DNA of 64,000 bases from Cytophagales bacterium. GTDB taxonomy: Bacteria > Bacteroidota > Bacteroidia > Cytophagales > Cyclobacteriaceae. This document shows, one piece after another, positions 36,279-64,000 of this stretch. Position 1 is the first letter of the stretch, and every line of letters starts with the position of its first letter. The notes beneath the pieces were generated by a model that saw only the letters and a list, made by a program, of their open reading frames with translations, was not told where the DNA came from and made no database searches. The translations under genes and the position numbers were made by a program. The DNA lies in the NCBI GenBank assembly GCA_017303795.1, contig JAFLBR010000004.1, forward strand, positions 124,001 through 188,000, given 5' to 3'.

Positions 36279-36312
36279 TGGAGTAAGGATTTACGTGAAT
36301 CAGATTTTAATG

Positions 36313-36426: not shown

Positions 36427-36454
36427 GGATTTCTGCTTTTATGATTTCTGATGC

Positions 36455-37795
36455 CTATACCGCATCCGACAAACTAGAGAATGTAAAGTCGCGGATTTTC
36501 ATAGCGGGTATTAATGCACTACCACCACCTCCAGGCCCACCGCCACTGGCTACGCGCATTTGCTTACCCAGTGTTTCCAGGTTGTTCAGCATAATAATCG
36601 GGCTTTCGTTAAAGCGGAAGTTTTTAATCGGATGTTTAATCTTTCCGTTTTCGATATAGAAACTTCCATCACGGGTAAGCCCTGTGTATAACAATGTTTG
36701 CGGATCAACAGCACGGATATACCAGAAGCGCGTTACCAGCACACCCTTCTTGGTGTCTTTAATCATATCTTCAATAGATGCGTTGCCTCCTTCCATAATT
36801 CTATTTCCCGGAAACGGTGTTGGCTCCACTCCTTTTTGTTGTGCCCAATAACGATCGTAGAAAAGATTTGAAACCACACCACCTTTAATAAGATCCATAC
36901 GCTTGCGTGGCAAACCACCAGCCTGATTGGCTGTAGGTACTTCTTCATTCCACGGATCGGTATAAATGTTTACACGTTCATCAACCAATTTTTCGCCCAA
37001 CTTGGTACCACCACCTTTTTTAGAAAGGAAGCTGCGGCCTTCATCTGCCTGGCGTGCATTAAAGTTTAACATCAGACTTAACAAATCAGACGCAGCATTA
37101 GGCTCCAGAATTACTGTGTACTTACCCGGTTCAATAGCTTTTGCATTACGCGATTGCAACGCTTTCTCAATTGCAATCTGCGAAGCTTCGGCCGTGTTGA
37201 GTTTGCTTACATCATTGAAGTTACGTGCTACCCAACCCGAACCGGTACCATCGTTGGTGCGCATGGTTACGGTAAAGTTTACACCCGTTGCCTGATTGTA
37301 AGTGAATAAACCTTTGCTATTCATCTGCGCATTAAAGCCACGGTTGTCTTCGAGATAACCTGCAGCAGTAATATCTTTTTTCGTTGCCGGATTAATACTA
37401 TCGGCTGCAGCCTGTGCACGATACTCGGGCGTAATCTTAGCCGTAGATTCAATAAATGTTTTTGCTTCCGGGCCATACGTTTGCGGACCGAGTGGATCCA
37501 TAAACTCTGGATTTTCAGGAGCAAGCTTAGCCAGTTCTTCTGCGCGCCTTACTACTTTTTCAAGTGAGGCATCATCAAACTCGTTGATGGATGCGGCTCC
37601 GGATTTTTTTCCAAAGTTTACTGAAACGGAAAGACTTACGTTGCTGTCTTCTCCGGCTGTGGACACACTGTTTCGCGCATAGCGAATGTTGCCTCCATCA
37701 CCACCATTCAATCCAGCCTCAATGCCATCGGCTTTAGAAAAGCCCACTACCTTTTCCAGGATTTTTTTCGCTTCTTCTTTTGAGAGTATAGCCAT
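36455..37795 (-). CDS. pmbA: TldE/PmbA family protein (second copy)
   Basis: A 446-residue paralogue of the TldE at 33305. It shares the N-terminal GDGGNIRYARNSVST, the GWVARNFNDVSKLNTAEA region and the same final IRDFTFSSLSDAV. A short Gly-rich stretch (GGGPGGGGSAL) near the end is an insertion relative to copy 1. No signal peptide and no zinc motif. It follows tldD copy 2 by a 97-base AT-rich spacer. Confidence 0.9.
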   Translation of the reverse strand: MAILSKEEAKKILEKVVGFSKADGIEAGLNGGDGGNIRYARNSVSTAGEDSNVSLSVSVNFGKKSGAASINEFDDASLEKVVRRAEELAKLAPENPEFMDPLGPQTYGPEAKTFIESTAKITPEYRAQAAADSINPATKKDITAAGYLEDNRGFNAQMNSKGLFTYNQATGVNFTVTMRTNDGTGSGWVARNFNDVSKLNTAEASQIAIEKALQSRNAKAIEPGKYTVILEPNAASDLLSLMLNFNARQADEGRSFLSKKGGGTKLGEKLVDERVNIYTDPWNEEVPTANQAGGLPRKRMDLIKGGVVSNLFYDRYWAQQKGVEPTPFPGNRIMEGGNASIEDMIKDTKKGVLVTRFWYIRAVDPQTLLYTGLTRDGSFYIENGKIKHPIKNFRFNESPIIMLNNLETLGKQMRVASGGGPGGGGSALIPAMKIRDFTFSSLSDAV

Positions 37796-37796
37796 T

Positions 37797-37892
37797 TTTA
37801 ATTCAATATTTAAAATTCAAAATTTTGTTATTCGGGTTTATTTCTGATTTCGAATTCAATTGCTTTTTAAATTTTGAATCCGAAATTTTGAA
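37797..37892. repeat. AT-rich inverted-repeat spacer after tldD copy 2
   Basis: The spacer contains TTAAAATTCAAAATTTTG near its left end and several inverted AAATTTTGAAT copies near its right end. The same style recurs at 39534-39618, also just after a tldD stop, which suggests duplication of a tldD-plus-spacer block. It could form a long AT-rich hairpin. Confidence 0.55.
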
Positions 37893-39533
37893 TTAGATCG
37901 TTCTTCCTGTATTAATCACATTTACACCATTAAAACGCGTAGTGGCTGAGCCGTGCGATACTGCATTGGATTGACTGGGTTGTCCTTTGCCATCGTTAAA
38001 AGCTCCGTTCAACCGGTAGTCGCGCTCATCGCAAATGGCAACGCACGAATTCCAGAACTCTTGTGTGTTAGCCTGATACGCAACATCTTTCAACATGCCT
38101 GCAATCTTTCCATTCTTGATTTCGAAGAATAACACTCCGCCAAACTGGAAGTTGTAGCGTTGCTGATCGATAGAGAACGAACCATCTTTCACGATGTAAA
38201 TTCCCTTTTCTACATTGCTGATCATCTGCTCAGGCGTGAGTTGTTGTTTGCCTGCCTGCAACGATACATTAGGCATCCGCTGAAACTGCACATCGCTCCA
38301 ACTCTGCGAATAGCAGCAGCCATGCGATTCTTTCTGGCCAAGCAAGCTAACCTGATCACGTATAGCCTGATAGTTTACCAACACACCATCTTTAATCAGA
38401 TCCCATTGCTTGCACTTCACGCCTTCATCATCGTAAGCAACTGCACCCAGCGAACCCACTTGTGTTTTATCGGCCACAAAGTTTACAATATCATTCCCGA
38501 ATTTAAATTTCTTTGATTGCCATTTATCAAACGTAAGGAAACTGGTTCCGGCAAAGTTGGCTTCGTAACCCAATACACGATCAAGCTCTGTTGGGTGGCC
38601 AACTGATTCGTGAATGGTTAACCACAAATGCGATGGCTCCAATACCAGATCATACTTGCCCGGCTCAACCGATTTGCCGGCAATCATTTGCTTGGCCTGC
38701 TCAGCAGCCATAGCCGCATCTTCTACTATGTCGTATGATTTGTTATAAAGAATTATCCCACCTGGCCCTTGAATTTTATCTTCAGCTTTTCCATCTAAGT
38801 ATTCATAACCCATACCTACAGGGGCGCTGAATGCCGAACGCGTTTTAAACGAACCCGTTTGCCTGTCCACCATCGATACCTGAAAGTTTGGCCAGGTGCG
38901 ATGTACATCCTGATCGATATAAGAACCTTCGGATGAGGCAAAATATTTTTGTTCGTTCACCAGAAAGATCAAACTGTTTACAAAGCTGGCTCCATTGTCC
39001 ATTGCTTTAGCATTTGCTGCTAACAGCAAATCCACTTTTTCCTTTACGGGAACTTCAAATCCATTTTTAACAATGGGTGTTTTCCAACTGATCTCGCCAT
39101 ACGAAGGATTAGGCGCAAGCTTTACAGGTTCTTTCTGAAATTTTGAGTTTGCTTTCGCAATAGCTACTGCACGTTCTGTTGCCTTTTTGATTCCATCAAT
39201 GGTAACCTCGTTGGTTGCACCAAAGCCCCATGTGCCATTTGCAATTACGCGCACACCCACACCAAACGATTCGGTATTGGTTACTCCTTGTACTTTTTTC
39301 TCGCGTGTAGTTACAAACTGGTTGAGGTAACGACCAATGCGTACATCGGTATAGCTTGCCCCTAACGATTTAGCCGTGTTGAGCGCAACATCGGCTAATT
39401 GTTTCTTTTGCTTTACATCTATGATGGGCGTGAGCAACTCGGCCAGATCAACCTCGCGGCCAAAGCCAGTGAGCGGCAACATCATGGCACCTGCACTTAA
39501 CCCAGCCATGTTAATAAAATCTCGTCTTTTCAT
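37893..39533 (-). CDS. tldD: TldD family metallopeptidase with Tat signal (copy 2)
   Basis: A 546-residue TldD starting at ATG, with Tat motif MKRRDFINMAGLSAG and the metal motif HESVGH in LTIHESVGHPTELDRVLG. Almost every block is shared with copies 1 and 3 (DVRIGRYLNQFVTTRE, GCCYSQSW, EFWNSC). It is followed by TldE copy 2, its likely partner. The signal-like N-terminus again implies export. Confidence 0.9.
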   Translation of the reverse strand: MKRRDFINMAGLSAGAMMLPLTGFGREVDLAELLTPIIDVKQKKQLADVALNTAKSLGASYTDVRIGRYLNQFVTTREKKVQGVTNTESFGVGVRVIANGTWGFGATNEVTIDGIKKATERAVAIAKANSKFQKEPVKLAPNPSYGEISWKTPIVKNGFEVPVKEKVDLLLAANAKAMDNGASFVNSLIFLVNEQKYFASSEGSYIDQDVHRTWPNFQVSMVDRQTGSFKTRSAFSAPVGMGYEYLDGKAEDKIQGPGGIILYNKSYDIVEDAAMAAEQAKQMIAGKSVEPGKYDLVLEPSHLWLTIHESVGHPTELDRVLGYEANFAGTSFLTFDKWQSKKFKFGNDIVNFVADKTQVGSLGAVAYDDEGVKCKQWDLIKDGVLVNYQAIRDQVSLLGQKESHGCCYSQSWSDVQFQRMPNVSLQAGKQQLTPEQMISNVEKGIYIVKDGSFSIDQQRYNFQFGGVLFFEIKNGKIAGMLKDVAYQANTQEFWNSCVAICDERDYRLNGAFNDGKGQPSQSNAVSHGSATTRFNGVNVINTGRTI

Positions 39534-39618
39534 AATTTAAAATTCAAAATTTCGAATTCAAGATTTATAGTACGTTGGTTCCAGATTCAATTTTGAATTT
39601 TAAATCTGGAATTTTGAA
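39534..39618. repeat. AT-rich inverted-repeat spacer after tldD copy 3
   Basis: CCAGATT (39581-39587) pairs with AATCTGG (39603-39609). Flanking AATTCAAAATTTCGAATT sequences are inverted against GGAATTTTGAATT at the right end. It closely resembles the spacer at 37797-37892. Confidence 0.55.
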
Positions 39619-41259
39619 TTAAATAGTTCTTCCCGTATTAATCACATTCACACCATTAAAGCGCGAAGTAGAACTGCCATGCGATACTGCACTTACCTGC
39701 GAAGGCTGACCTTTGCCATCGAAGAATGAACCAAACATGCGGTAATCTTTTTCATCGCAGATTTTCGCGCAGCTATTCCAGAACTCTTGTGTGTTGGATT
39801 GATAAGCCACATCGTTGAGCATGCCAGCAATCTGGCCGTTTTTAATTTCATAAAACACTGTGCCGCCAAACTGGAAGTTGTAGCGTTGCTGATCGATGGA
39901 ATAAGAACCTCTTCCGGCAATGTAGATACCCTTCTCAACATCTTTAATCATTTGAGCCGCACTGTATGGTTCTTTGCCGGGAGCAAGCGACACATTCGGC
40001 ATGCGTTGAAACTGTACATCGTTCCAACCTTGTGCATAACAACAGCCGTGCGATTCGTTTTGTCCCAACATGTGTACCTGATCTCGAATAGCCTGGAAGT
40101 TTACCAGTACACCATCTTTGATTAAATCCCAACGTTTACACTTCACACCTTCATCATCGTAACCCACAGCACCAAGCGAACCTGTTTGTGTTTTGTCGGC
40201 AAAAATGTTTACCTGTTTACTGCCGTAGTTAAAGTTTCCTGATTTAAGTTTTTCAATGGAGGCAAAACTGGTTCCGGCATAGTTGGCTTCGTAACCAAGA
40301 ATACGATCAAGCTCCAGCGGGTGGCCAACCGACTCGTGAATGGTTAACCCCAAATGGTTTGGTTCAAGAACAAGATCGTACTTACCCGGCTCAACCGATT
40401 TAGCCGAAATCATTTCTTTAGCTTGTTTCGCTGCAGTAGCGGTATCTTCAATTATATCGTAACTATTGCGATACAACACCATGCCCATTGGCGTTTGCAG
40501 TTTATCTTCTGCTTTGGGAATCATGTATTCATAACCCAAACCCATTGGGGCACTCATTGCATCGCGCGATTTAAATTTACCGCTGGCGCGATCGGTTACC
40601 GAAACCGTAAACGTTGGCCAGATGCGATGCACATCCTGATCGATATAAGAACCATCAGTTGATGCAAAATATTTTTGTTCATTAACCTGAAACAGGTTTG
40701 AGTTAACGAAGGTTGCTCCGTTAGTTAATGCAGCTGCATTGGCCGCGAGTAACAACTCGGCTTTTTCAGAAACCGGAACTTCAAACGCGTTTTTTACAAT
40801 CGGAGTATTCCACACTACTTCGCCATAAGCAGGCACAGGGGCAAGCTTAACCGGCTCTTTCTGAAATTTTGAATTTGCTTTCGCGATGGCTAAAGCTCTT
40901 TCGGTTGCTTTCTTAATGCCATCGGTGGTAACTTCATGCGTTGCCGCAAAACCCCAGGTGCCTTTTGCAATTACCCGAATGCCCACACCAAACGATTCGG
41001 TGCTGGTTATACCCTGCACACGTTTTTCACGCGTACTGATAAACTGATTGAGATACCGGCCAATGCGCACATCGGCATACGTGGCTCCGCCCGAACGAGC
41101 CGTGTTAAGGGCTACATCGGCAAGTGATTTTTTCTGTGCATTGGTAAGTGGCACTTCCAGCAGGGCTTCAGCGCTTACAGGGTTACCAAACAAAGATGTG
41201 GGCAACATCAAACCGCCTAATCCCACACCGGTTAATTGTATAAAATCTCTACGCTTCAC
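39619..41259 (-). CDS. tldD: TldD family metallopeptidase with Tat signal (copy 3, GTG start)
   Basis: A 546-residue TldD started by GTG (41257-41259), with Tat motif MKRRDFIQLTGVGLGGLML and metal motif HESVGH in LTIHESVGHPLELDRILG. It has no TldE directly next to it; the nearest is copy 2 beyond tldD copy 2. It may pair with that TldE or act alone. It heads the cluster and a TPR gene ends 112 bases away on the same strand. Confidence 0.9.
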   Translation of the reverse strand: MKRRDFIQLTGVGLGGLMLPTSLFGNPVSAEALLEVPLTNAQKKSLADVALNTARSGGATYADVRIGRYLNQFISTREKRVQGITSTESFGVGIRVIAKGTWGFAATHEVTTDGIKKATERALAIAKANSKFQKEPVKLAPVPAYGEVVWNTPIVKNAFEVPVSEKAELLLAANAAALTNGATFVNSNLFQVNEQKYFASTDGSYIDQDVHRIWPTFTVSVTDRASGKFKSRDAMSAPMGLGYEYMIPKAEDKLQTPMGMVLYRNSYDIIEDTATAAKQAKEMISAKSVEPGKYDLVLEPNHLGLTIHESVGHPLELDRILGYEANYAGTSFASIEKLKSGNFNYGSKQVNIFADKTQTGSLGAVGYDDEGVKCKRWDLIKDGVLVNFQAIRDQVHMLGQNESHGCCYAQGWNDVQFQRMPNVSLAPGKEPYSAAQMIKDVEKGIYIAGRGSYSIDQQRYNFQFGGTVFYEIKNGQIAGMLNDVAYQSNTQEFWNSCAKICDEKDYRMFGSFFDGKGQPSQVSAVSHGSSTSRFNGVNVINTGRTI

Positions 41260-49264: not shown

Positions 49265-51871
49265 TTATTCATACTTAAGGGTATCCGTTGGATTAATGGA
49301 AGCTGCTTTCAAAGAGTGGTAACTTACAGCAATCCACGCGATAAGAATTGAAATGAGGCCTGTGATAAAAAACAAGCCAACGTTCAACTCTACTTTATAT
49401 GCAAACCCGTCAAGCCACTTTTGAAGTAGATATACAGACAGCGGCACGCTGATTACCAGTGCTATTGTTATCAACAGCGTAAATTTCTTATTCAGCATAC
49501 TTACAATATGGCAAGCCGATGCGCCCAATACCTTTCGAATTCCAATTTCTTTAGTTCGTTGCTCAACTGTAAAAGCCGATAGTCCGTAAAGGCCAAGGCA
49601 TGAAATTAAGATTGCCAGGATTGTAAATACAGAAATTGCTTTTCCAAAGATTTTCTCTTTGGTTAAGAGCTCACCAAAATTCGCATCCAGAAAGTGATAG
49701 CGGAATGGTTCGTCAGGTACATGTTGCTTCCACTTTTGTTCAGCTACCGTTAGGAATGCAGGAATAGCCTCCGCGTCCAATTTAAATCCAAGTTCCCACC
49801 GCTCTTTTCCCATAACAATGGCAAGTGGCGCAATTTCTTTCCGTAACGATTCCCAATGAAAGTTGCTGACAACACCAATCACCTTTTGTGTTTCATTAAT
49901 AACAGCGCCTATCGGATTTTCCCCAAGATCAAGGGCTTTAACAGCCGCTTCGTTTAAAATAATGGCCGAAGAATCTGATGCCAGCTCTTTATTGAAATCG
50001 CGACCCGCCTTTAACTGCATTGAATTTAAAGAAAGAAAGTTCTCGTCTGCCGAATAGGTAAAGATGGAGGCCGGATGATCCATTTTTGGAGTTTGATATG
50101 TTGAAAAGGTCATTACGCGATTGCTCCCCGGTTCGCCCGTATGGAAGCTTGAAGTAGTTACTCCGGGAAGTGCGGCAAGTTCATTCCTGAATACATCAGC
50201 CGAATTCTTTAACAAACTAATACGGTCAATGGTGAGCACATTTTGCTGATCAAAGCCGAGATCTTTAGTAGCCATAAAATGTAATTGGTTTTGAACAACC
50301 AATGCACATGAGATTAACAGGATGGAAATTGTAAATTGAAATACCACCAAAAAATTTCTGAATGAACCGCCCCCTGTTTCAATGGTTCCTTTTAAAACCT
50401 TAACCGGAATAAATGAGGTAAGGTAGAATGCCGGATAAATACCAGATAGAATGCCCACCAAAAATGAAAACAAAATAAAGAGACCAACTGTGTACGGTGT
50501 TTGCCAAATGGTATTGAGTAGCGGTGTGCCGGTAACCGATTCAAAAACACGTAGAAATACTTCTGCTAATAGCAAGGCTACTACCATGGCGATGATACTG
50601 GTAGTAACAGATTCTAACAGATATTGTCCTACCAATTTACTTCTTACAGTACCCAACGCTTTGCGAATACCTACTTCTTTTGCTCTACGCGTAGCCCGTG
50701 CGGTGGTTAAGTTTACAAAGTTTACGGCTGCCAGAATTAAAATAAAAAATGATACGGCAGAGAATATGTAAATGTTAGTTTCATTTCCGCCAGGAGAGAG
50801 CTCATGATTCAGTTTTGAATGCAGATAGATGTCCTTCACGTTGTGGACATAAAATTTTATAGCCATATCGTTTTTCCGATAATCTTCGAGTGTTGCAAAA
50901 CCCATCGGCTTTCCTGATTCCGGATACACATGATGTTCAAAAAGTAAATCCAGCGCGCTTGTTAAGTCTATTTCCGTATTATTTTCCTTCAGCAATACAT
51001 AGCTATAAAAGGCGGCTGAAGACCAAACCGGATCTCCTTTTAACTTACCTTGATTGGACAACCACAATTGTGATTTAAGATGTGAATTAAAACCAAGTTT
51101 TTTAACCACCGCGGTAATTGTGAACTGTTCGCGCGACTTACCAACTTCAATGGTTTTGCCAATCGCTTCAGAGTCACCAAAAAATTTTCTGGCAAGCTCT
51201 TGTGTAACTACAGCCGCGTTGGTTCCGCTTAATGCCCGTACCGGATTTCCACTGATAAACGTGTAATCAAATATTTTAAAGAAGGCAGTATCGGTATAAT
51301 AAACAATGGGTTCTATTAAAGTTTGATCCTCAATTTTGATGGGCACATTCTTTTCTTGTCGAATGCGGGTAGCCGTTTCTATTCCGCCAAATTCTTTGGG
51401 CAACACATCAAGCAGTTCTTCCGGAGCACTAGCAAATTTGCCAATGTTAAAGAAAGATATACCAATACGATAGGTACGGTCAGCCTTGGCAAAACCCTTG
51501 TCATGACTCCACTCGCCATGCACAAAAAGGAAAATAACCAGGCTACACGCTATGCCAATAGCCAAACCGCCAATGGTAATAAAAGAATAGCCTTTACTGC
51601 GCCACAGCGTTCGGAACGCAACTTTTAAATAATTAGTGAGTAACATAGTATTGATAAATTTTGGGGTGATTTTATTTCTTAAAATTATTCCTGGTCTTAA
51701 AAACCGAACGGTATTCCAAAGCAATCTTCGTTTTGCCTTTCGCTCATCAAACACTTTTACATCCTTCTCAAACTTTTGAAGAAGATCGCCTTCAATTTCT
51801 TCCAGCAGGTGTGGCGGACAGAAAGCGCGGAGCAGGCGGACAGCAAAAGGTGGTTGTTCTATCCTATTCAT
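49265..51871 (-). CDS. FtsX/MacB-type permease with N-terminal prefix domain (array gene 4)
   Basis: An 868-residue permease. The header RLLRAFCPPHLLEEIEGDLL (prefix domain) is followed by a membrane helix (GYSFITIGGLAIGIACSLV), a MacB-like periplasmic domain, a trio of helices ending RRAKEVGIRKALGTVRSKL, and a second periplasmic/FtsX half with RTKEIGIRKVLGASACHIV. This is the duplicated orphan permease layout; no ATPase is adjacent. The ATG overlaps the previous stop by 8 bases. The transport substrate or signalling role is unknown. Confidence 0.88.
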   Translation of the reverse strand: MNRIEQPPFAVRLLRAFCPPHLLEEIEGDLLQKFEKDVKVFDERKAKRRLLWNTVRFLRPGIILRNKITPKFINTMLLTNYLKVAFRTLWRSKGYSFITIGGLAIGIACSLVIFLFVHGEWSHDKGFAKADRTYRIGISFFNIGKFASAPEELLDVLPKEFGGIETATRIRQEKNVPIKIEDQTLIEPIVYYTDTAFFKIFDYTFISGNPVRALSGTNAAVVTQELARKFFGDSEAIGKTIEVGKSREQFTITAVVKKLGFNSHLKSQLWLSNQGKLKGDPVWSSAAFYSYVLLKENNTEIDLTSALDLLFEHHVYPESGKPMGFATLEDYRKNDMAIKFYVHNVKDIYLHSKLNHELSPGGNETNIYIFSAVSFFILILAAVNFVNLTTARATRRAKEVGIRKALGTVRSKLVGQYLLESVTTSIIAMVVALLLAEVFLRVFESVTGTPLLNTIWQTPYTVGLFILFSFLVGILSGIYPAFYLTSFIPVKVLKGTIETGGGSFRNFLVVFQFTISILLISCALVVQNQLHFMATKDLGFDQQNVLTIDRISLLKNSADVFRNELAALPGVTTSSFHTGEPGSNRVMTFSTYQTPKMDHPASIFTYSADENFLSLNSMQLKAGRDFNKELASDSSAIILNEAAVKALDLGENPIGAVINETQKVIGVVSNFHWESLRKEIAPLAIVMGKERWELGFKLDAEAIPAFLTVAEQKWKQHVPDEPFRYHFLDANFGELLTKEKIFGKAISVFTILAILISCLGLYGLSAFTVEQRTKEIGIRKVLGASACHIVSMLNKKFTLLITIALVISVPLSVYLLQKWLDGFAYKVELNVGLFFITGLISILIAWIAVSYHSLKAASINPTDTLKYE

Positions 51872-54512
51872 GCTTTAATGCTTCTGTAGCATTTGTGTTG
51901 GCTGATCGAACCAAAAGAAATAGGATTGAAGCAAAAGCAAAAAACGCCACCAATAAAAAAGGCAAAATAAAATCCAGTGAACCTAACCAAATCCTTATCG
52001 GATAGTTAGATAACCATAAGTTACTTGCATAATAACTTATCGGAAAAGCAAGTACTCCGGCCAGTGTTAATAAGATTGCAAATTCTCTGGAAAGTAGTCG
52101 GATGATATTTAGCATTGTAGCTCCCAATGTTTTTCGAATCCCAATTTCTTTAGTGCGCTGGTAAGTCATAAAGTAGGTAAACCCAAAAAGACCCAGGCAG
52201 GCAATGCTTAACCCGATAGCCGATAAATAACTAAACACTTTTTGCAATTGATGTTCGCGTTGATATTGGCTATTGAAAAATTCATCTAAAAAGAAATAGT
52301 CAAAAGACCTGTCAGGAAAAATAGTTAGCCATTGTTGCTGCAAAGAAGTAAGTGTTTCGGTAACATCATTTGAGTTGATCTTAACTGTAATGAATTTCAT
52401 ATACCCTTGCCCCGGTGTGTACATAGACGCCAGAATAGGTTCTTGTAATGAACGCTCATGAAAATCATTCACTACCCCAATAATCTCACTACTCCCCATC
52501 AACTTGTTTCCCACGGCCTCTTGCGCATTTTTATAACCAAGCATGGTAACGGCTGTTTCATTTAAAATAACCTGCTTTGGGTTTTCATCAGCGAAGTTTC
52601 TTCCGGCTACTAATTTCAACCCATACGTTTCAATAAAATCTGTGTCAACACGTGTGCGTGAAGTTGAAATCAATTCCGGATTATCTTCGGATTTTCTCAA
52701 GCGACCCAACCATTCATTTTCGCGTCCGGGAATGGAAGAGGTAATTGTTGCGTTAACCGCAAACGCTTGATCTTTAATTCTGCTCTTAAAGAGATTTATC
52801 TTATTTGTAAACGAACTATCCATTTCGGCTCCGGGGCCGCCAATCGTTTTGATAACAACATTTTGATCAGCATCAAAACCAAGTTCCTGACGTTGCATGA
52901 AAGAAACCTGTCGTTGAATAATGAGCGTTGCGCTAATCAGCAAAATTGTGGTAAGAAATTGGATGGATAGTAAAGACCTTCTAAGAAATTGTCCATTTAA
53001 ATTTGAAAACTTACCGCCCTTCATTGCCTGAAGAGGATTGATGGAGGCAAGATTCCGTGTGGGGTAAAATCCAACTACAAATGAAAAGATAATAAGGAAT
53101 CCTAAAACAATAGAAACGAAAACAGGATTTAACAGTACTATCATTTCCATTTGCTTTCCCGTTAACGAGTTGAAAACTGGTAAGAGGATTAAGGATAACA
53201 TTACAGCAATGGCAAGCGCAATAAGATTGATGATAAATGATTCCGTAAAAAATAAGATTTGCAATTGATAACGACTCGAGCCAACAATTTTACGAACACC
53301 AATTTCTTTCGCTCTTCGGATAGCACGAGCCAATGATAAATTGAGGTAGTTAATCAACGCGAGAACAAGGATAAACGCAGCAACTAATTGAAGTACATGT
53401 ACGATTCGTTCGTTTCCGTTTACTTGCATTTCGCCCGTGAGATTGGAGTGTAAATGAATGCCTTCAAGGGGTTGTAGAAAAAAACTGGCTGTTGCCCGAT
53501 TGGCATTCTCATTGCTTTCCATTTTTGCTGTCAATACTTTTTGAATGGTGGATTCTACTTCGGCAAGATCAACATTGGGTTGTAGTAGCAGGTAGGTATA
53601 AAATCCATCCCAGTTCCAGGCGCTTCGGTCTTCATATACATTCATCCATGAAGCCAGGAAATTAAACTGCATGTGAGAGTTTGCGGGCAAATCCTTGTAA
53701 ACACCCGTAACCAACCAATCACCCATCCCTTCCCAATGAATGATTTTATTAATGGCTTCAGAATCGCCAAAATATTTTTGTGCTGAAGATTCGGAAAGGA
53801 TCAGTTTATTCTCACCATTCAATGCTTTCAGCGGATCGCCTTCAATAAAATCTAAAGGAAAAATGGTTAAGAAGGTTGAATCCACAGCATAGATCGATGA
53901 TTCCATAAACGTGCTCTGCTCATCACCCTCGCCAATGACCATCACCGCCTCTACATGTGTGGTTACCGGAAAAAGCCTCGTGAAGGTTTCAACGACCGGA
54001 ATAGTCTCCTTTAGCGTTTCGCCAACAGCCGGAAAAATCTGTGCCTTGCTATACTGTAATTCATTATCTATAAGACGCGAATAGCTAATGCGCACAATGT
54101 CTTTCGATCGTGGAAAAAATGTATCATACCTTTTTTCGAATGAAACATAATTTTGCATGAGCAGGCAAACGGCAATGCCTACAGCCAATCCAGTAACATT
54201 AATAAAAGTAAAAAGTGAATGTCTGCGCATGCTGCGAAAACTGAACCTCATATAGTTTAGAATCATACCCGAATGTTGAGATGAAAGCTTATTTCTTTGA
54301 ATGATTCCCGGCCTGAAAAACCGAATTGTATTCCAAAGCAATCTTCGTTCGGCCCTCCGAAGTTTATAGTCGTCCGTCCACTCGGAATGGTCGGATGACT
54401 TGAGATCGCGTTCGTAGCGTTGCAGCAAATCACCTTCTATCTCTTCCAGCAAATGCGGTGGGCAGAAACTTCTGAGCACTCGGAAACACCAATGCTTGTT
54501 TTGATTATTCAT
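51864..54512 (-). CDS. FtsX/MacB-type permease with N-terminal prefix domain (array gene 3)
   Basis: An 882-residue permease. The header CFRVLRSFCPPHLLEEIEGD precedes an extended linker (RYERDLKSSDHSEWTDDYKL). The first FtsX trio carries RRAKEIGVRKIVGSSRYQLQ and the last RTKEIGIRKTLGATMLNII. The header is close at nucleotide level to array gene 2 (a 42-base identical stretch at 54426-54467 and 57049-57090). It overlaps both neighbours by 8 bases, so the whole array is translationally coupled. Confidence 0.88.
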   Translation of the reverse strand: MNNQNKHWCFRVLRSFCPPHLLEEIEGDLLQRYERDLKSSDHSEWTDDYKLRRAERRLLWNTIRFFRPGIIQRNKLSSQHSGMILNYMRFSFRSMRRHSLFTFINVTGLAVGIAVCLLMQNYVSFEKRYDTFFPRSKDIVRISYSRLIDNELQYSKAQIFPAVGETLKETIPVVETFTRLFPVTTHVEAVMVIGEGDEQSTFMESSIYAVDSTFLTIFPLDFIEGDPLKALNGENKLILSESSAQKYFGDSEAINKIIHWEGMGDWLVTGVYKDLPANSHMQFNFLASWMNVYEDRSAWNWDGFYTYLLLQPNVDLAEVESTIQKVLTAKMESNENANRATASFFLQPLEGIHLHSNLTGEMQVNGNERIVHVLQLVAAFILVLALINYLNLSLARAIRRAKEIGVRKIVGSSRYQLQILFFTESFIINLIALAIAVMLSLILLPVFNSLTGKQMEMIVLLNPVFVSIVLGFLIIFSFVVGFYPTRNLASINPLQAMKGGKFSNLNGQFLRRSLLSIQFLTTILLISATLIIQRQVSFMQRQELGFDADQNVVIKTIGGPGAEMDSSFTNKINLFKSRIKDQAFAVNATITSSIPGRENEWLGRLRKSEDNPELISTSRTRVDTDFIETYGLKLVAGRNFADENPKQVILNETAVTMLGYKNAQEAVGNKLMGSSEIIGVVNDFHERSLQEPILASMYTPGQGYMKFITVKINSNDVTETLTSLQQQWLTIFPDRSFDYFFLDEFFNSQYQREHQLQKVFSYLSAIGLSIACLGLFGFTYFMTYQRTKEIGIRKTLGATMLNIIRLLSREFAILLTLAGVLAFPISYYASNLWLSNYPIRIWLGSLDFILPFLLVAFFAFASILFLLVRSANTNATEALKHE
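54426..54467. repeat. Permease header direct repeat, copy A
   Basis: A 42-base stretch identical to 57049-57090, encoding the EEIEGDL part of the header of array gene 3. It is far more conserved than the body of these genes. Confidence 0.7.
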
Positions 54513-57141
54513 GTTTTAGTGAATCAACAGGATTAGCCCTGGCAGCGTTATACGATTGAAAGAACACAACTGAATAGACTAACCCTACAGCTCCTATTAA
54601 TACAAAAACAATAGTGAGATAATTGATAGAGGATCGAAAGGCAAAACCTTCCTTCCACCAGATAACAGTGGCAATCGAGGCTGGTGCAGCAATTAAACTA
54701 GCCACTATCATCAAAATAATTGCTTCTTTAGAGAGCAGTGAAATAAGATGTGACATTCGCGCACCTAACACTTTTCTGATTCCAAATTCCTTCGTTCTTC
54801 TTAACGCATGAAATGATGATAACCCAATTAACCCTAGCGCAGAAATAAAAATGCACAGGTAAGACAATGCATTCAGGAGTTTGATTTGTGTAACATCAGA
54901 TTTGTATTGTTCATCAAATCGCTTGTCTAAAAAATGATATTCGAAAGGATGTGGACTATCGATTGACTCCCATTGATTTTGTATCGATTGAATGGCTTCG
55001 GAGACATTCCCAGTTACGCGAACCTGAAGAAACCCATGCTCCTGGGGGATTTTGCAAATGAGTGTCGGCTCAACGTTGGAGTGGAGCGAAGCAAAATTGA
55101 AATCCTTTACAACTCCTATCACATGGGCATCTTCCGTTGCCTGATAAAACCTAACTTTCTTTCCGATGGGATCGTCCCAGCCCATGGCTTTTACAGCAGC
55201 TTCATTTGCAAGAAATGACTTAAGTAAATCTCCCTGTTCTCCAACGCGAAAATCGCGACCTTCCTTTAATTCAATTCCCATTGTTTGCAGATAATTTTCT
55301 CCCACAAAAAAAACGGTGAATCCATTTACCTTCATTCCTTCTTTACTTTCAGCCCACATCCCCCATTTTTCATGGGTATTCGTCATACCAATTACATTTT
55401 GCGATGTAGTGACAGATAAGATGTTGGGGTTCTTTAAAATTTCGTTTCGGATAGGAGTGATTTGCTTTTGGATGACTGTATCCTGAATAGGAATAACCAG
55501 CACATTCTCTTTTTCAAAGCCGAGATTACGGGACCTTACAAAATCGATCTGATCTTGCATGAATAACGTGGAGGTAACTACAAAAATTGAGACTATGAAT
55601 TGAACTCCGATCAGTATCCTTCGGGTATTCGTACCTGAAAAATATGACACTTGAGTTACTCTCAGGGTTTTCATAGCCGGAATTCTGGAGAGTACCAACG
55701 CTGGGTAGGAACCTGCCAGACAACCAACACCAATAGAAATGCCGAACGCGACAATCAACAACTCAGGCTGATTTATAATGTCAAGTGCAAGATTTTTTCC
55801 AATCAATAAATTAAACGATGTGAATTTAAGAATGAAGGCCACCAAAAAGAGTGCAAGGATGAAAGAGATTAGAGACAGCAAGATTGATTCAATAAAGAAG
55901 GCACCCATTAAATTTTTATTGCCCGACCCCAACGTTTTTTTGATTGCAATTTCCATCGACCTGCCTGATGACTTAGCCGTGGCTAAATTCATGTAATTAA
56001 TGCACGCAAGCAGAATAATGAACATTCCAACACCGGCAAGGGTATAGAGATACATTATATTTCCTTGAGGTAAATCTGCCTTAAGAGTGGAATACAAATG
56101 AATAGCCGCCAGTGGCTCCAGAATGGGTGTGTACTTACCTTCAATACGGTCGCCTGTCTCCTTAAAGTATTTATGATATATAGTCTGAAATGCGACCGCA
56201 AATTCCTTTGGATTAAAACCTTGTTTGACGAGGAGATAGGTATACACATCCGGGTTCCAAAAACTTTCAGAAGGAGTATCAAACCAATCCCGATCGGGTA
56301 AGCCTGCCAGTAGTATCTTAAACTTGACATGTGAGTTTTCGGGCACATCCTCAATCACAGCAGTAATTGAATAAATCGTATTCTCAATCAAAATAGTTTT
56401 GCCAATAACATCGGTAGTCCCAAAGTATTTTTGTGAAGCAGAATTTGTTAACACCACAGAGTTTAAGTCGGTTAGGCACGAAGCTTTATCGCCAGCTAAA
56501 AATTTATGGGTGAAGATGTCGAAGTAGGTAGAGTCGGCACGTATAATTTCCTCTTCGTAGAAAGACTTAGTTTCACTAACACTGGGGGTTACAAGTGTTC
56601 GTCCCCATACTTCAAGTCGAGTTACTTTTTCTATTTGAGAAAATTCCGCTTGCAAAACAGGTGCTAATTCGCGGGCAGTTATTGCGCCATGAAAGTCATC
56701 GCCTTGCATTTGTTGTCTTGCTCCTAATCGATAAATGCGATTGTGGTTAATGTGCTGTTGGTCGTATGTCAAATCATATCTCAGAATCAACACCAGTATA
56801 ATCCCAACCGAAATTCCAAGAGCAAGGCCGGACACATTTAGCAAAGAATGAAATTTTTCCTTCTTAAAAATGCGCCATGCAAAAACAATATGATTGATGA
56901 ACATATCGAATGAATTTATTTTTCTTGATTTCTTGCCTCTTAAAATGATTCCCGGCCTGAAAAACCGAATCGTATTCCAAACCAATCTTCGTTTGGCCCT
57001 TCGAACTTTATAGTTGCCCGACTTGAGATCGTGCTCATAGCGTTGGATCAAATCACCTTCTATCTCTTCCAGCAAATGCGGTGGGCAGAAGCATCTTAAA
57101 AACCAAAAAGCTAAACGATATGTGCGTGAGTTTTTACTCAT
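54505..57141 (-). CDS. FtsX/MacB-type permease with N-terminal prefix domain (array gene 2)
   Basis: An 878-residue permease starting MSKNSRTYRLAFWFLRCF, then CPPHLLEEIEGDLIQ. The first permease trio contains the atypical SGRSMEIAIKKTLGSGNKNL, the second RTKEFGIRKVLGARMSHLI. Its order of domains is as in the neighbours. The header shares a 42-base identical run with array gene 3. The ATG overlaps the stop of array gene 1 by 8 bases. Confidence 0.88.
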   Translation of the reverse strand: MSKNSRTYRLAFWFLRCFCPPHLLEEIEGDLIQRYEHDLKSGNYKVRRAKRRLVWNTIRFFRPGIILRGKKSRKINSFDMFINHIVFAWRIFKKEKFHSLLNVSGLALGISVGIILVLILRYDLTYDQQHINHNRIYRLGARQQMQGDDFHGAITARELAPVLQAEFSQIEKVTRLEVWGRTLVTPSVSETKSFYEEEIIRADSTYFDIFTHKFLAGDKASCLTDLNSVVLTNSASQKYFGTTDVIGKTILIENTIYSITAVIEDVPENSHVKFKILLAGLPDRDWFDTPSESFWNPDVYTYLLVKQGFNPKEFAVAFQTIYHKYFKETGDRIEGKYTPILEPLAAIHLYSTLKADLPQGNIMYLYTLAGVGMFIILLACINYMNLATAKSSGRSMEIAIKKTLGSGNKNLMGAFFIESILLSLISFILALFLVAFILKFTSFNLLIGKNLALDIINQPELLIVAFGISIGVGCLAGSYPALVLSRIPAMKTLRVTQVSYFSGTNTRRILIGVQFIVSIFVVTSTLFMQDQIDFVRSRNLGFEKENVLVIPIQDTVIQKQITPIRNEILKNPNILSVTTSQNVIGMTNTHEKWGMWAESKEGMKVNGFTVFFVGENYLQTMGIELKEGRDFRVGEQGDLLKSFLANEAAVKAMGWDDPIGKKVRFYQATEDAHVIGVVKDFNFASLHSNVEPTLICKIPQEHGFLQVRVTGNVSEAIQSIQNQWESIDSPHPFEYHFLDKRFDEQYKSDVTQIKLLNALSYLCIFISALGLIGLSSFHALRRTKEFGIRKVLGARMSHLISLLSKEAIILMIVASLIAAPASIATVIWWKEGFAFRSSINYLTIVFVLIGAVGLVYSVVFFQSYNAARANPVDSLKHE
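57049..57090. repeat. Permease header direct repeat, copy B
   Basis: The 42-base stretch identical to 54426-54467, in the header of array gene 2. The pair suggests recent gene conversion or strong nucleotide-level constraint. Confidence 0.7.
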
Positions 57142-59758
57142 TCCTCAAACTCTCCACTGGATTAGCCTGTGCTGCACGAATGGTTTGGGTGCCCGTAATC
57201 AACATGGCCAAACCAATTACAGCCAAGGCCGCAATAGGAATGGTTAACACACCCACTGAAATGCGATACGGATAAGACGATAGCCACCAGTTCATCACAA
57301 ACCATGCCTTAGGACCAAATATTAATACAGCAATTAAAATGGGCTTGATGGATGACCAGGTTAACATCTTAGTAATGCTTAAGACCGAGCCGCCCATTAC
57401 TTTACGGATACCAATCTCTTTTACGCGCACTTCAATCATGTAGGTTGATAAACCTAACAAACCTAAGCCCGCTATAACAATTGTTAAAAAACTAGCCAGT
57501 AGTGTAATGGTGCGTGTTGTTTCCAGGTTGGCAAACTTGCGTGCATAAGCAGCATCCACAAATTGATATTCGAATGGATAGTCGGGATTGTATTTTTTTG
57601 AAAGCTCTTCCATCACACGAATGTTTTCCTGCATAGGATTATTAATATTCAATTTTATGTGGGCTACAGAAAATGCCCACGATTGATTGCATCCGAAAAG
57701 CAGTACAGGTTCTACTTTATGAAAAGGTGAGGTGAGAATAAAATCTTTTACAATGCCGATCACATGCCACTCCACTCCATTGTCTTTAATAATTTCTCCA
57801 ATCGGATCGGCAAAGCCCATTGCTTTGGCTGCTGCTTCATTCAATACCACGGCTGTTGAGTCGGTGGGAAATTTATCCAAATCCATATCGCGGCCACGCA
57901 CAACAGTAAGCCCTGCGGTAGTAGCAAAATGCTGGTCGGCATAAATGCGCTCGAACATGGTTTTGTCATCAGGATCTTTGCCGTTCCACTCAATACCACT
58001 GGTATTGCTCCAGCGGTCGGTAATGGGTGTACTGGTTTTGGTAACCGATGTTGCCACTCGGGCTTGAAGCAAATCGTTTCGGTAAGCATTAAAGTTTTTG
58101 CCCAACGTGCCGGTAAAGTATTGATAAACGAGGTTAGCTTTTTCATAGCCGGCATCGCGGTTTTGTACATAGGTAATTTGCCGCTGCACCACAAACACCG
58201 ACACCATTAAAGTAATAGCAATACCAAACTGAAACACTACCAATGCTGCGCGCAGCCTGCTTTTTCCGGATGCCGCTACACCAATACCTTTTAAAATTTT
58301 TACTGGCTTAAAAGCCGATACGTACAGTGCCGGATAGCTTCCGGCCAATAAACCTACAACCATAATCAGGGCTAAGCCTCCTAACCAGAAATTAAGGTTG
58401 GTGAATTCCAACACAAGTTGTGATCCTATCAATCGGCTGAAATACGGTAAGCCCATATAAACAGCCAACAACGACAGAACTCCGGCACCAAATGCCAGCA
58501 ACATCGACTCGCACAAGAACTGACCGATTAATGAATTTCTGAATGCACCCGTTACTTTACGCACGGCTACTTCTTTGGATCTACGCTGCGCGCGCGCTGT
58601 GCTTAAGTTAATGAAGTTAATACACGCAATGGCCAGCAAACAAATTCCTAAAATACCCAACAGGCGAATGATCTCGATACGACCGCCAGCCTGTACACCG
58701 TTTTCGAAACGTGAGTACAAACGCATTTTGGTTAGTGGATATAAAAATACTTCCTGTGTATCCGGGTTTTTGCTATGTGTTTTTACAATATCCTTTACAC
58801 CATCATTAAACTGATTTACATCTGTTCCCGGTTTCAGTTTTACGTAGGTGTAAACTGAATTGATTCCCCACTTTATTTCTTTGCCGCTCAGCATTTCTAC
58901 CAGCTTGTATGGAATAATATATTCAAACCGAAAATCGGTATTGGAAGGCAAGTCTTTCAACACCGCGGTAACAGTAAGCGAAAAAGATTCTCCGCCCTCA
59001 CCTATGGTAACAGTTTCACCAAAGGCTTCTTTATCGCCAAATAATTCTTGTGCAAACTTTTCGGTTATGGCAATGGACATTGGGTCTTTAAAAGCCGTTT
59101 TTGCATCTCCGCTTATGAGCGGAAAACTGAACATGGTGAGAATGGCATCATCGGCATAAGCACCCGTGGTTTTAAGGATACGTTTATCGCCTTCTATAAA
59201 CAAATGCTGCTCGCCCCAGGCCGTGTAGCTAATAGCGCTTTCCACTCCTGTATATTCTTCTACCAGCGTGGGTGCTAACACGCGCGCGGTTACGTCCCAA
59301 CAATTAATTTTCCCGTTGGCATCGTACCGGTTCCAGACTTTATATAGCCGCTCTTTATCCGCATGAAACTGATCATAACTAAATTCATTCTGAATCCATA
59401 AAAACAAAAACGCAAAAGCGGTAATACCCAATGCCAGGCTAAACAGATTAATAAACGAATAGCTTTTGTTACGCAGCATTACACGCAAGGCAACTTTAAA
59501 ATAGTTAGAGAGCATATCAGTATAGTTTGAATGAAAAGAAAGTTTGTTGCGTAGTAAAATTCCAGGGCGGAAAAATCGAATGGTGTTCCAAAATAATCTG
59601 CGCTTAGCCCTTCGAAGTTTATAGCCGTTAGACCACTCAGGGTGAGCTAACGATTTCAGATCGCGCTGGAATTGCTGAAGCAGGTCTCCTTCAATTTCTT
59701 CCAAAAGGTGTGAAGGGCAAAACCATCTTAAGAATCGTATGATGCACGAATGCTCCAT
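57134..59758 (-). CDS. FtsX/MacB-type permease with N-terminal prefix domain (array gene 1)
   Basis: An 874-residue permease, first after the PadR gene. The header IIRFLRWFCPSHLLEEIEGD is followed by the two-half permease, with RRSKEVAVRKVTGAFRNSLI and VKEIGIRKVMGGSVLSITK. ATG 59758 is preferred to a TTG at 59767 because it lies one base after the PadR stop (TGA G ATG). It heads the permease array and should be PadR-controlled. No ATPase gene is adjacent. Confidence 0.88.
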   Translation of the reverse strand: MEHSCIIRFLRWFCPSHLLEEIEGDLLQQFQRDLKSLAHPEWSNGYKLRRAKRRLFWNTIRFFRPGILLRNKLSFHSNYTDMLSNYFKVALRVMLRNKSYSFINLFSLALGITAFAFLFLWIQNEFSYDQFHADKERLYKVWNRYDANGKINCWDVTARVLAPTLVEEYTGVESAISYTAWGEQHLFIEGDKRILKTTGAYADDAILTMFSFPLISGDAKTAFKDPMSIAITEKFAQELFGDKEAFGETVTIGEGGESFSLTVTAVLKDLPSNTDFRFEYIIPYKLVEMLSGKEIKWGINSVYTYVKLKPGTDVNQFNDGVKDIVKTHSKNPDTQEVFLYPLTKMRLYSRFENGVQAGGRIEIIRLLGILGICLLAIACINFINLSTARAQRRSKEVAVRKVTGAFRNSLIGQFLCESMLLAFGAGVLSLLAVYMGLPYFSRLIGSQLVLEFTNLNFWLGGLALIMVVGLLAGSYPALYVSAFKPVKILKGIGVAASGKSRLRAALVVFQFGIAITLMVSVFVVQRQITYVQNRDAGYEKANLVYQYFTGTLGKNFNAYRNDLLQARVATSVTKTSTPITDRWSNTSGIEWNGKDPDDKTMFERIYADQHFATTAGLTVVRGRDMDLDKFPTDSTAVVLNEAAAKAMGFADPIGEIIKDNGVEWHVIGIVKDFILTSPFHKVEPVLLFGCNQSWAFSVAHIKLNINNPMQENIRVMEELSKKYNPDYPFEYQFVDAAYARKFANLETTRTITLLASFLTIVIAGLGLLGLSTYMIEVRVKEIGIRKVMGGSVLSITKMLTWSSIKPILIAVLIFGPKAWFVMNWWLSSYPYRISVGVLTIPIAALAVIGLAMLITGTQTIRAAQANPVESLRNE

Positions 59759-61425: not shown

Positions 61426-64000
61426 TTAGCTGAGCTTCGCCTTTAAAAACTCAGCCGTATAACTGCCTTTGGCTTTCTTCACCATGTCTTCGGGGGTGCC
61501 TTCAAACAACAGTTTGCCACCATACTTCTCACCACCTTCGGGGCCGAGATCGATAATCCAGTCGGCACACTTAATCACTTCAAGATTGTGTTCAATCACC
61601 ATAACCGAATGGCCCTGGTCAACCAGCGCATTAATGGCTTTTAATAATTTAGAGATGTCGTGAAAATGTAAGCCGGTAGTGGGTTCATCAAAAATGAAAA
61701 GGATATTACCCGTTGTGTCTGAGTTATTCTTGCCTAAGAACGAAGCCAGTTTTACCCGTTGCGCTTCGCCACCCGAAAGCGAGTTTGACGATTGCCCGAG
61801 TTTTACATACCCCAATCCCACTTCAAACAATGGTAAGATGCGATCGTACACGGGTTTTTTGTCTTTGAAAAATTCAAGACCAGCCTCTACAGTCATATCC
61901 AGAATGTCGGCAATGTTCTTGCCTTTGTGTTCAACCTCCAGCACTTCCTGCTTAAAGCGTTTGCCGCCACAACTTTCGCATTTCAAAAAGATGTCGGCCA
62001 TGAATTGCATCTCCACTTTAATCTCACCTTCACCTTCGCAGGTTTCGCAACGGCCGCCTTCAACATTAAACGAAAAGTGCGAGGGCTTATACCCGCGTTG
62101 TTTACTCAGCGGCTGGTCGGCATAGAGATTCCGAATGGCATCATACGCTTTTACATAGCTTATCGGGTTGGAGCGCGATGATTTCCCAATTGGATTCTGA
62201 TCTACAAATTCTACTTGCGTGATTTTATTGATATCACCTTCCAGGCGATCGTACTTGCCAGGCGTTTCGGCCACCGAGCCACTCATGCGACCCAAAGCCG
62301 GGTACAAAATCTTTTTTACCAAGGTCGATTTACCCGAACCACTTACTCCGGTTACAACCGTAAGCACACCCAGTGGAAATTTTACCGTAAGGTTTTTCAG
62401 GTTGTTCTCGCGCGCGCCCGAAACAATTACCGCATCTTTCCATTTTCTGCGATGTTTCGGAACCGGAATTTTTTCAGTTCCATTCAGGTAATCGACTGTG
62501 TGCGATTTAACCTTGCCGTTCAGTTCGTGCTGCGAACCCTGAAAGATTAATTCACCACCATGCGAACCGGCATCGGGACCAATATCAATAATCTGATCGG
62601 CAGCCCGCATAATTTCTTCTTCGTGTTCTACCACAATCACGGTGTTACCCATATCGCGCAATGATTTCAACACCTCCACCATGCGGGCAGTATCTCGCGG
62701 ATGCAAACCAATACTCGGTTCGTCCATAATGTACATAGAACCCACCAACGCACTGCCTAGCGAAGTAGCCAGTTTAATCCGCTGAAACTCGCCACCCGAT
62801 AAAGTTGCTGTTACGCGATTTAAGGTTAAGTAGCCCAAACCAACTTTGTCCATGTATTCTAACCGCGATTTGATTTCGGTAAGAATGCGTTCGGAAATTT
62901 TTTGTTCGTATGCCGGTAACTTCAGATCATTAAAAAATACCAGCGTTTCTTCAATCGGCATTAACACCAGATCGGTAATAGATGTATCGGCAATTTTTAC
63001 GTACGCTGCATCTTTACGCAACTTGGTCCCGCGACAATCAGGGCATGTTGTTCTTCCGCGGTAACGCGAAAGCATTACGCGGTATTGAATCTTATGTGTT
63101 TTGGATTCGAGGTACTTGAAAAAATCGTGAATACCATCGAAGTGTTCATTGCCTTTCCATAATAAGTCGCGCTCTTTTACACTAAGCTCGCTGTATGGAC
63201 GATGAATCGGAAAATCGAACTTGATTCCATTTTTAATCAAGGGCTTTGCCCATTCGCTCATCACTTCGCCACGCCACGGAGCAATGGCTCCTTCATAGAT
63301 AGAGAGCGATTTATCGGGAATAACCAGGTCTTCATCAATTCCCAACACTTTACCAAAACCTTCGCAGGTAGTGCAGGCCCCAAAGGGATTATTAAAACTA
63401 AACAGGTTGATGGAAGGCTCGGTAAACGTAATGCCATCTAACTCAAATCGATCGGAAAAATTAAATTTTTCATTTTCAAGATATACTACACAATCGCCAT
63501 GACCTTCAAAGAAAGCGGTCTGCACCGAATCGGATAGGCGAAAGGTTAAGTCTTCATCGGTAGCTTTTACCGCTGCGCGGTCAATGAGAATTTCGACCTC
63601 TTCAGTATCGATTTTAGAATTGGATTTCTTTTTTGCCTCACCCCTGCCCCTCTCCCGCAGGAGAGGGGTGTCAGCCTCAGGCTGACGGGGTGAGGCAATC
63701 TCCTCAATAAACTTTACTTCTCCATTTATCAGCACCCGCGCAAAGCCTTTGCTCAGTAACAAGTTCAATTCATCGGCAAGCTTGCGGCCTTTGGTTATCT
63801 TAAGCGGGCAAACCACCATAATGCGTGTGCCTTCCTTTTGTTTGTTGATGAAGTCCACCACATCCGTAACGGAATCGCGTTTTACTTCTTTGCCGCTGAC
63901 TGGTGAATAGGTTTTACCAACACGTGCAAACAACAACTTCAGGTAATCGTAAATCTCTGTTGTTGTGCCTACGGTAGAGCGTGGGTTGCGGGTGTTAACT
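61426..64000 (-). CDS. uvrA: Excinuclease ABC subunit A, N-terminus cut off by window edge
   Basis: UvrA, the damage-recognition ATPase of nucleotide excision repair. The 5' end lies beyond the right edge; visible sequence begins near NTRNPRSTVGTTTEIYDYLK. Both ABC signatures are present (LSGGEFQRIKLATSLGS and LSGGEAQRVKLASFLG), as are the second Walker A GVSGSGKST, the zinc-binding CETCEGEGEI and CESCGGKRF, and DEPSIGLHPRD/DEPTTGLHFHD. An extra peptide of about 20 residues (ASPRQPEADTPLLRERGRGE) is inserted after NGEVKFIEEI; it is encoded by a palindrome at 63635-63696. The frame is intact. Confidence 0.95.
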   Translation of the reverse strand, partial: VNTRNPRSTVGTTTEIYDYLKLLFARVGKTYSPVSGKEVKRDSVTDVVDFINKQKEGTRIMVVCPLKITKGRKLADELNLLLSKGFARVLINGEVKFIEEIASPRQPEADTPLLRERGRGEAKKKSNSKIDTEEVEILIDRAAVKATDEDLTFRLSDSVQTAFFEGHGDCVVYLENEKFNFSDRFELDGITFTEPSINLFSFNNPFGACTTCEGFGKVLGIDEDLVIPDKSLSIYEGAIAPWRGEVMSEWAKPLIKNGIKFDFPIHRPYSELSVKERDLLWKGNEHFDGIHDFFKYLESKTHKIQYRVMLSRYRGRTTCPDCRGTKLRKDAAYVKIADTSITDLVLMPIEETLVFFNDLKLPAYEQKISERILTEIKSRLEYMDKVGLGYLTLNRVTATLSGGEFQRIKLATSLGSALVGSMYIMDEPSIGLHPRDTARMVEVLKSLRDMGNTVIVVEHEEEIMRAADQIIDIGPDAGSHGGELIFQGSQHELNGKVKSHTVDYLNGTEKIPVPKHRRKWKDAVIVSGARENNLKNLTVKFPLGVLTVVTGVSGSGKSTLVKKILYPALGRMSGSVAETPGKYDRLEGDINKITQVEFVDQNPIGKSSRSNPISYVKAYDAIRNLYADQPLSKQRGYKPSHFSFNVEGGRCETCEGEGEIKVEMQFMADIFLKCESCGGKRFKQEVLEVEHKGKNIADILDMTVEAGLEFFKDKKPVYDRILPLFEVGLGYVKLGQSSNSLSGGEAQRVKLASFLGKNNSDTTGNILFIFDEPTTGLHFHDISKLLKAINALVDQGHSVMVIEHNLEVIKCADWIIDLGPEGGEKYGGKLLFEGTPEDMVKKAKGSYTAEFLKAKLS
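63635..63696. repeat. Three-stem palindromic element inserted in frame in uvrA
   Basis: Closing stem GCCTCACCCC (63635-63644) with GGGGTGAGGC (63687-63696); hairpin CCCCTCTCC (63647-63655) with GGAGAGGGG (63660-63668); hairpin TCAGCC (63671-63676) with GGCTGA (63680-63685). All three stems are perfect. It resembles dispersed palindromic elements that insert into genes (such as Rickettsia RPE), and encodes part of the UvrA linker. Confidence 0.85.

Follow-up and report, generated by a model that had tools for sequence, protein, structure and literature searches.

A palindromic element of 62 nt (positions 63635–63696, minus strand) lies in frame within uvrA in a stretch of 64,000 nt from a Cytophagales bacterium (assembly GCA_017303795.1, here G000; contig JAFLBR010000004.1, positions 124,001–188,000), which we call the window. 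This palindrome is a dispersed in-frame repeat of the triplex motif (TM) kind; such triplex elements are also known as PIT. Its ends are, with good support, those of a larger in-frame element that carries a gene of the DUF559 (PF04480) family. We consider it probable that the uvrA palindrome is a non-autonomous, nuclease-less copy of a TM-kind mobile repeat, similar to a miniature inverted-repeat transposable element (MITE), whose full form carries DUF559 between inverted ends.

The host gene (61426–63999, minus strand, with its 5' part beyond the window) is an open frame of 993 codons in the genome and matches the UvrA profile TIGR00630. A preliminary description of this DNA had reported a palindrome that adds about 20 residues to a UvrA linker without breaking the frame, and this was borne out in sequence and frame: the linker gains 21 residues, ASPRQPEADTPLLRERGRGEA. 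The element folds into a three-way junction with a closing stem of 12 bp (63633–63644 with 63687–63698), 10 of them formed within the element by its left arm GCCTCACCCC (63635–63644) and right arm GGGGTGAGGC (63687–63696), and two by the flanks (63633–63634 with 63697–63698). Hairpin 1 (CCCCTCTCC...GGAGAGGGG, 63646–63669), which is conserved and present in most of the copies compared, has 9 bp plus one G–T pair (63646–63655 with 63660–63669), and hairpin 2 (GTCAGCC TCA GGCTGAC, 63670–63686), which varies among copies, has 7 bp (63670–63676 with 63680–63686). The first two stem lengths are those described earlier, 10 and 9 bp, whereas the third had been given as 6. Folded as single-stranded DNA, the element reaches −32.6 kcal/mol, against −11.85 ± 2.18 for shuffled sequences (z −9.5, with 0 of 200 shuffles matching it); folded as RNA, its z is −8.5. 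Within the window, the arm GCCTCACCCC occurs only as the two arms of the element, 0.06 chance occurrences being expected. A known structured RNA family was ruled out, since the Rfam covariance models gave no match at E up to 1 in the region 62500–64000.

The palindrome had also been suspected of behaving like a mobile element, and a search of the 4.87-Mb genome did return many further copies. There were 24 BLAST places, with some copies split into two halves, and 25 sites with the exact pattern CCTCACCCC N1-4 CCCCTCTCC, against none for a reversed control pattern; in total, about 30 copies are dispersed in this genome. The short form of the repeat consists of the tail CCTCACCCC, 2–4 nt and the hairpin CCCCTCTCC..GGAGAGGGG; the long form, to which the uvrA copy belongs, adds a second, variable hairpin and a closing GGGGTGAGG. 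By eye, the base preceding CCTCACC in the copies compared looks to be G, C or A, and not T. Seven of the 30 copies examined for reading frames lie within genes, without DUF559 and with host sequence on both sides; the hosts are UvrA, HrpB, AlaS, N-acetylornithine carbamoyltransferase, a TraG ATPase, Ada and GcvP. The carbamoyltransferase scored just below its model cut-off (279.7 vs 288) and Ada passed the ogt model and not the full Ada model, with Pfam domains flanking the insert on both sides in each case. The remaining copies are at gene ends, in intergenic regions or in places without a frame of a recognised family. The TraG-family ATPase is that of a conjugative transposon and carries its copy in frame (L038:1490–1521), which suggests that copies can ride on transferable elements.

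Judged by its sequence, the core of the repeat is the known intrastrand-triplex motif TM, in which a hairpin with C-rich and G-rich arms is followed by an adjoining G-rich third strand, GGGGTGAGG. In the uvrA element this core (hairpin, CA and GGGGTGAGGC on the minus strand, 63635–63668) aligns to TM_ECO no. 1 of Escherichia coli (PMC4666352), and none of 2000 shuffles aligned as well. Over 260 bacterial genomes are reported to carry TM repeats, a G/C-rich motif (Holder et al., 2015, PMC4666352); in E. coli K-12 these repeats are, according to the excerpts of that paper, always intergenic, tied to genome instability and without a mobility gene nearby. The E. coli repeats share with ours the C-rich/G-rich hairpin followed by GGGGTGAGG, the many copies per genome and the presence in many bacterial genomes. 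Unlike them, the present copies lie in frame in core genes, form paired three-way junctions and flank DUF559 genes.

In-frame palindromes have been described before, as Rickettsia palindromic elements and as intragenic repetitive extragenic palindromes (REPs) of the GTAG and CGTC classes, with uvrA and tRNA synthetases among the hosts (Di Nocera et al., 2013, PMC3733652). As in Rickettsia, the present palindromes are read in frame in protein genes, and the proteins that carry them are presumably functional. In contrast to both REP classes, the uvrA repeat has no GTAG or CGTC tail, and its outer ends, CCTCACCCC and GGGGTGAGG, pair mutually. Furthermore, GTAG REPs are tied to the RAYT (REP-associated tyrosine) transposases, whereas the family described here is linked to DUF559; for CGTC REPs, the excerpts of the same source give no dedicated transposase. 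The repeat resembles MITEs in being short, in its terminal inverted repeats and in having ends common to a gene-carrying element; it differs from them in that it has no linked transposase and its ends are hairpins with tails, and no target duplication was found among relatives too diverged at the sites.

The link with DUF559 is evident within this genome, in which both of the two DUF559 matches touch the repeat. The DUF559 on contig C18 lies in frame within leucyl-tRNA synthetase (LeuRS), between NWIGKSVGAELEFG and IRVFTTRPDT, and is bounded by two inverted tail-plus-hairpin ends. The interrupted LeuRS should be functional, because no second LeuRS was seen in the genome, where the remaining matches listed are either DUF559 itself or about 30% alike. 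The stand-alone DUF559 gene ends (L049:1418–1521) in the palindrome pair CCTCATCCC..GGGGTGAGG, one half of which encodes its C-terminal residues. Among the 22 genus rows read at the LeuRS site (G321 was not among them), 8 have DUF559 and 11 are empty of the element. In G315 both ends are present without DUF559, a form like that of the uvrA copy; the G299 and G296 rows are short, with possible scars. The DUF559s at this site fall into two groups in the genus, one of close sequences (G000, G302 and G318) and one pair (G314 and G305), so the site was filled at least twice. At the same site (WIGKS..TTRPDT), relatives without DUF559 (L232, L233, L235, L251) have A/T-rich repeats of the AATTCAAAATTC type, as if a second dispersed repeat used it; similar A/T repeats also occur in the window, at 37802–37825 and 39529–39566.

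The nuclease gene is under purifying selection (ratio of nonsynonymous to synonymous changes, dN/dS, 0.09 for G000/G302, with synonymous sites near saturation). Its predicted model has the Vsr/EDxHD nuclease fold and matches the homing endonuclease I-Bth0305I (PDB 3r3p; review PMC3943268) and Vsr in predicted fold and remote sequence likeness; the structure alignment covered 42 of the 80 named DUF559 loci considered below. Both I-Bth0305I and DUF559 occupy recurrent conserved sites. However, DUF559 lies outside any intron or intein, has a catalytic domain of ~110 residues in which no added DNA-binding modules were recognised, is bounded by inverted hairpin ends and has nuclease-less derivatives. 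Published DUF559 genes include VsrA of Caulobacter (PMC12907096), a Thermosynechococcus gene filed under the EDxHD homing family (PMC9403480) and the transposase/DUF559 segments of Legionella, which are recombination hotspots (PMC12308824). These share the domain and have suspected roles as mismatch nucleases, in homing or in mobile elements; in contrast to the present loci, the excerpts of these papers describe no palindromic ends and no in-frame insertion into essential genes. Similarly, the excerpts of the open-licence literature (most subscription papers fall outside it) hold no DUF559 between palindromes and no in-frame DUF559 in tRNA synthetases. A larger, non-splicing in-frame element, with a DUF559 gene between inverted palindromic ends, seems to be new.

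The association was read in named genomes as well. Of 577 confirmed relatives, ordered by their similarity to the DUF559 borne in LeuRS, the best 80 were taken; all but one (79) have Bacteroidota titles (the alignment was made without L086 and L107). DUF559 has an open frame of at least 100 codons on each side at 54 of these loci and on one side at 11; at 15 it stands alone. By the sequence after the insert, the in-frame hosts are 23 LeuRS (19 and 4, at two sites), three methionyl- (MetRS), one isoleucyl- (IleRS) and one valyl-tRNA synthetase (ValRS), nine MetH (two sites), three methylmalonyl-CoA mutases, two RecG, one acetyl-CoA synthetase and 11 others. By profile models, 11 hosts matched MetH and 28 matched leuS, which is the number of all synthetases together and thus probably includes cross-matches. 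Pfam, run on 10 of the 54 hosts, placed DUF559 within LeuRS, RecG, methylmalonyl-CoA mutase, MetRS, IleRS, MetH, ValRS, acetyl-CoA synthetase and Lhr; in these ten it found no protein-splicing domain, but only host domains, DUF559 and a related nuclease model.

A C-rich tail with hairpin is found within 250 nt of DUF559 on either side at 60 of the 80 loci and on both sides at 39, against 3/64 and 2/73 at control positions 1.8 kb away, none of them on both sides. For the DUF559 loci of the class, the figures are 26/29 and 15/29 (29 of 31 loci, L092 and L093 being too short). The end sequences vary by lineage, with CCCCTCCCAAAGGGAGGGG in a Prevotella locus and ATCC-type ends in Flavobacteriaceae. 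Each element's own two ends nevertheless pair: the mean longest match is 13.3 vs 8.4 with swapped ends (0/10000; 78 of the 80 loci), and 11.4 vs 8.4 at the in-frame loci alone. Among 295 genomes of the class, the repeat pattern occurs in 70, at up to 97 sites per genome (G026), DUF559 in 139 and both in 61 (odds ratio 12.8, p 3e-15, kinship ignored). Zeros in these DUF559 tables may miss genes, because the E. coli control gave no PF04480 match despite ycjD in K-12. Two further observations concern these loci. In the LeuRS inserts of L102 and L111, several copies of the ends stand in tandem, seen as repeated PSPQERG or PSPRGEG peptides, as if ends accumulate. On L205, a contig titled Anaerolineae (Chloroflexota; binning as titled), DUF559 is followed, downstream of position 373, by tandem GLGGEENSLATTR-like repeats.

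The ycjD gene of E. coli belongs to DUF559 (E 1.4e-49), and a TM sequence lies 167 nt past its 3' end (L254:3705–3740, with ycjD at 3908–4261). This sequence is identical to no. 9 of the 23 E. coli TM copies in the excerpts of PMC4666352, at the same coordinates. The chance of a TM within 250 nt of one gene of this length is about 0.4% (23 copies in 4.64 Mb). Of 5426 genomes, 3333 cover 80% or more of the ycjD region. Opposite the TM repeat, the 5' end of ycjD also has a strong inverted repeat, CACCTCATTCTGACAA..TTGTCAGAATGAGGTG (L254:4259–4301).

The history of the insertion was read at 30 UvrA loci: that of this genome, 21 of the same genus (24 genomes searched) and 8 from other families of the order. 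Within the genus, G302 alone (1 of 21) shares the element at this position. A decayed, non-palindromic descendant is found in G318 and G307, different elements occupy the same linker in G303 and G305, and G314 is doubtful; 12 of the 21 loci have no recognisable element at the linker, G316, G301 and G311 being outside this assessment. Since differing elements occupy the same linker among relatives, it is a tolerant site that has been hit repeatedly. The insert residues are absent from all 8 loci of the other families, which have a short linker. Together with the many genomic copies, this lack of conservation in more distant UvrA agrees with the mobile behaviour proposed earlier. The restriction to one lineage, raised earlier as a point to check, holds toward these families; however, the insert is shared with G302, predates this one species and is not private to it.

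The elements of G000 and G302 differ at 2 of their 62 sites, the rest of uvrA at 519 of 2914, and no other 62-nt window of 2791 in the gene is as alike. One outer pair is T–A in one of these two aligned genomes and G–C in the other. An element so much more alike than its gene is either under constraint at the DNA level or renewed, whether through gene conversion or by inserting again. In G318/G307, the fold has been lost (−17 vs −54 and −57 kcal/mol), although the likeness of the G318 element to that of G302 was reached by none of 2000 shuffles; UvrA itself thus tolerates the decay of the palindrome and seems not to need it. The gcvP copy was found in this genome only, among 22 genus loci read; G305 has another element there and 20 have none recognisable.

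DUF559 itself was placed on a tree of 105 domains (without L086, L092, L093, L107, L177 and L211, the last two of which have a stop in the domain). Host labels were taken from a narrower motif than that of the host count, L152 and L223 being "other" there. The labels cluster, with 43 changes vs 70.5 when shuffled (0/200), and MetRS (3/3) and RecG (2/2) form single clades. On well-supported branches, the main LeuRS site requires no fewer than 7 label changes, on a tree with many unresolved forks and a short domain. The tree is consistent both with spread at the same site, homing-like or vertical, and with jumps into new genes.

How such an element could work may be outlined as follows. The full-length form would consist of two inverted copies of the C-rich tail and hairpin around a small DUF559 gene, whose product is predicted to be a Vsr/EDxHD-type nuclease related to I-Bth0305I. 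This nuclease may cut or nick DNA at the hairpin ends, in hairpin-structured DNA or at the empty target, and the break would be repaired by copying the element into the site, with or without the nuclease gene. Copies landing in frame in a loop or linker would be translated as a harmless insert of ~20 (or ~150) residues, and such landings would survive even in essential genes. We infer a nuclease that cuts, an element that moves and is copied by repair, and an action in trans on the short copies.

Another enzyme, for instance a RAYT/Y1 transposase, or replication slippage could instead move the palindromes, with DUF559 as cargo settled between two copies. The tie of GTAG REPs to RAYT transposases (excerpts of PMC3733652) is a precedent, the genome has 5 Y1-transposase matches, 4 of them above cut-off, and many short copies are half elements. 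Yet none of the 5 Y1 matches has the end motif within 250 nt, in contrast to both DUF559 genes touching the repeat, and the link of DUF559 to the ends recurs at 60 of the 80 named loci, whose ends differ in sequence, and at ycjD; we regard this explanation as unlikely. As a partner, the RAYT/Y1 transposase was rejected, only an isolated CCTCACCC (L053) and an isolated CCCTCTCC (L051) being found near the matches.

It is less probable still that DUF559 is a homing endonuclease of the free-standing type that spreads only at the same site, the short palindromes being unrelated structural repeats kept by the host for transcript stability, chromosome structure or selection on the UvrA linker. The clustering of host labels and the unusual conservation of the uvrA element between G000 and G302 fit such a view, but the label changes among LeuRS-site DUF559s indicate that sites change too, G315 has two ends only at its LeuRS site, UvrA seems to have no need of an element that has decayed in G318/G307, and the gcvP copy is confined to this genome. 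Finally, conserved essential genes and a homing-endonuclease fold are what would be expected of an intein or an intron-borne gene with palindromes as its parts. This identity was rejected and is highly improbable: in the loci read, an uninterrupted frame spans host, ends and DUF559, so that no intron is needed, the ten hosts scanned have no splicing domain, and a 21-residue insert without DUF559 could hardly splice.

Several points weigh against a DUF559-driven mobile repeat. The stop-free property of the element is modest: three of six frames are open in the uvrA element and four of six in four other copies, whereas random 62-mers average 2.6 (998/5000 of them reach 4). In-frame survival would then mainly reflect selection among landings. 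The 54 in-frame loci of 80 are not an unbiased share, because the 80 were chosen from 577 as those most like an in-frame DUF559, and 20 of the 80 have no end motif by the 250-nt rule. The exact repeat pattern is missing from 78 of the 139 DUF559-bearing genomes of the class, and DUF559 is unmatched in 9 of the 70 repeat-bearing ones (kinship ignored). No DUF559-sized insert was seen in UvrA among the rows listed for the 295 genomes, where the largest frame is 1031 aa. Target duplication is unreadable at the uvrA edges, where the nearest element-sharing relative is ~18% different around the element, and relatives are likewise too diverged at the LeuRS and gcvP sites. In the three E. coli loci read that lack ycjD, fabI is followed by a regulator and an efflux gene, with no clean empty site or readable boundary. 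As no cutting or movement has been observed, both can only be inferred.

Elsewhere in the window, 33405–41089 and 51677–59728 hold two sets of paralogous repeats (families D1–D10), 62–91% like their reference copies, which are apparently tandem repeated genes.

More generally, we tentatively put forward, as a serious possibility, that TM-type palindromes from Bacteroidota to E. coli are footprints of one new selfish class: a palindrome-ended, non-splicing homing element, with DUF559 in frame in essential proteins and nuclease-less copies seeding genomes. Repeats that bracket DUF559 suggest how such widespread repeats may spread. A DUF559 gene with TM-type ends is a concrete candidate enzyme for TM repeats, near whose E. 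coli copies the excerpts of PMC4666352 report no mobility genes; intragenic CGTC REPs are likewise without a known dedicated enzyme in those of PMC3733652. This candidate can be tested in E. coli, since ycjD adjoins a TM repeat. If it is correct, it would provide a route by which a homing-type nuclease inhabits essential genes, such as those for tRNA synthetases and methionine synthase, without splicing.
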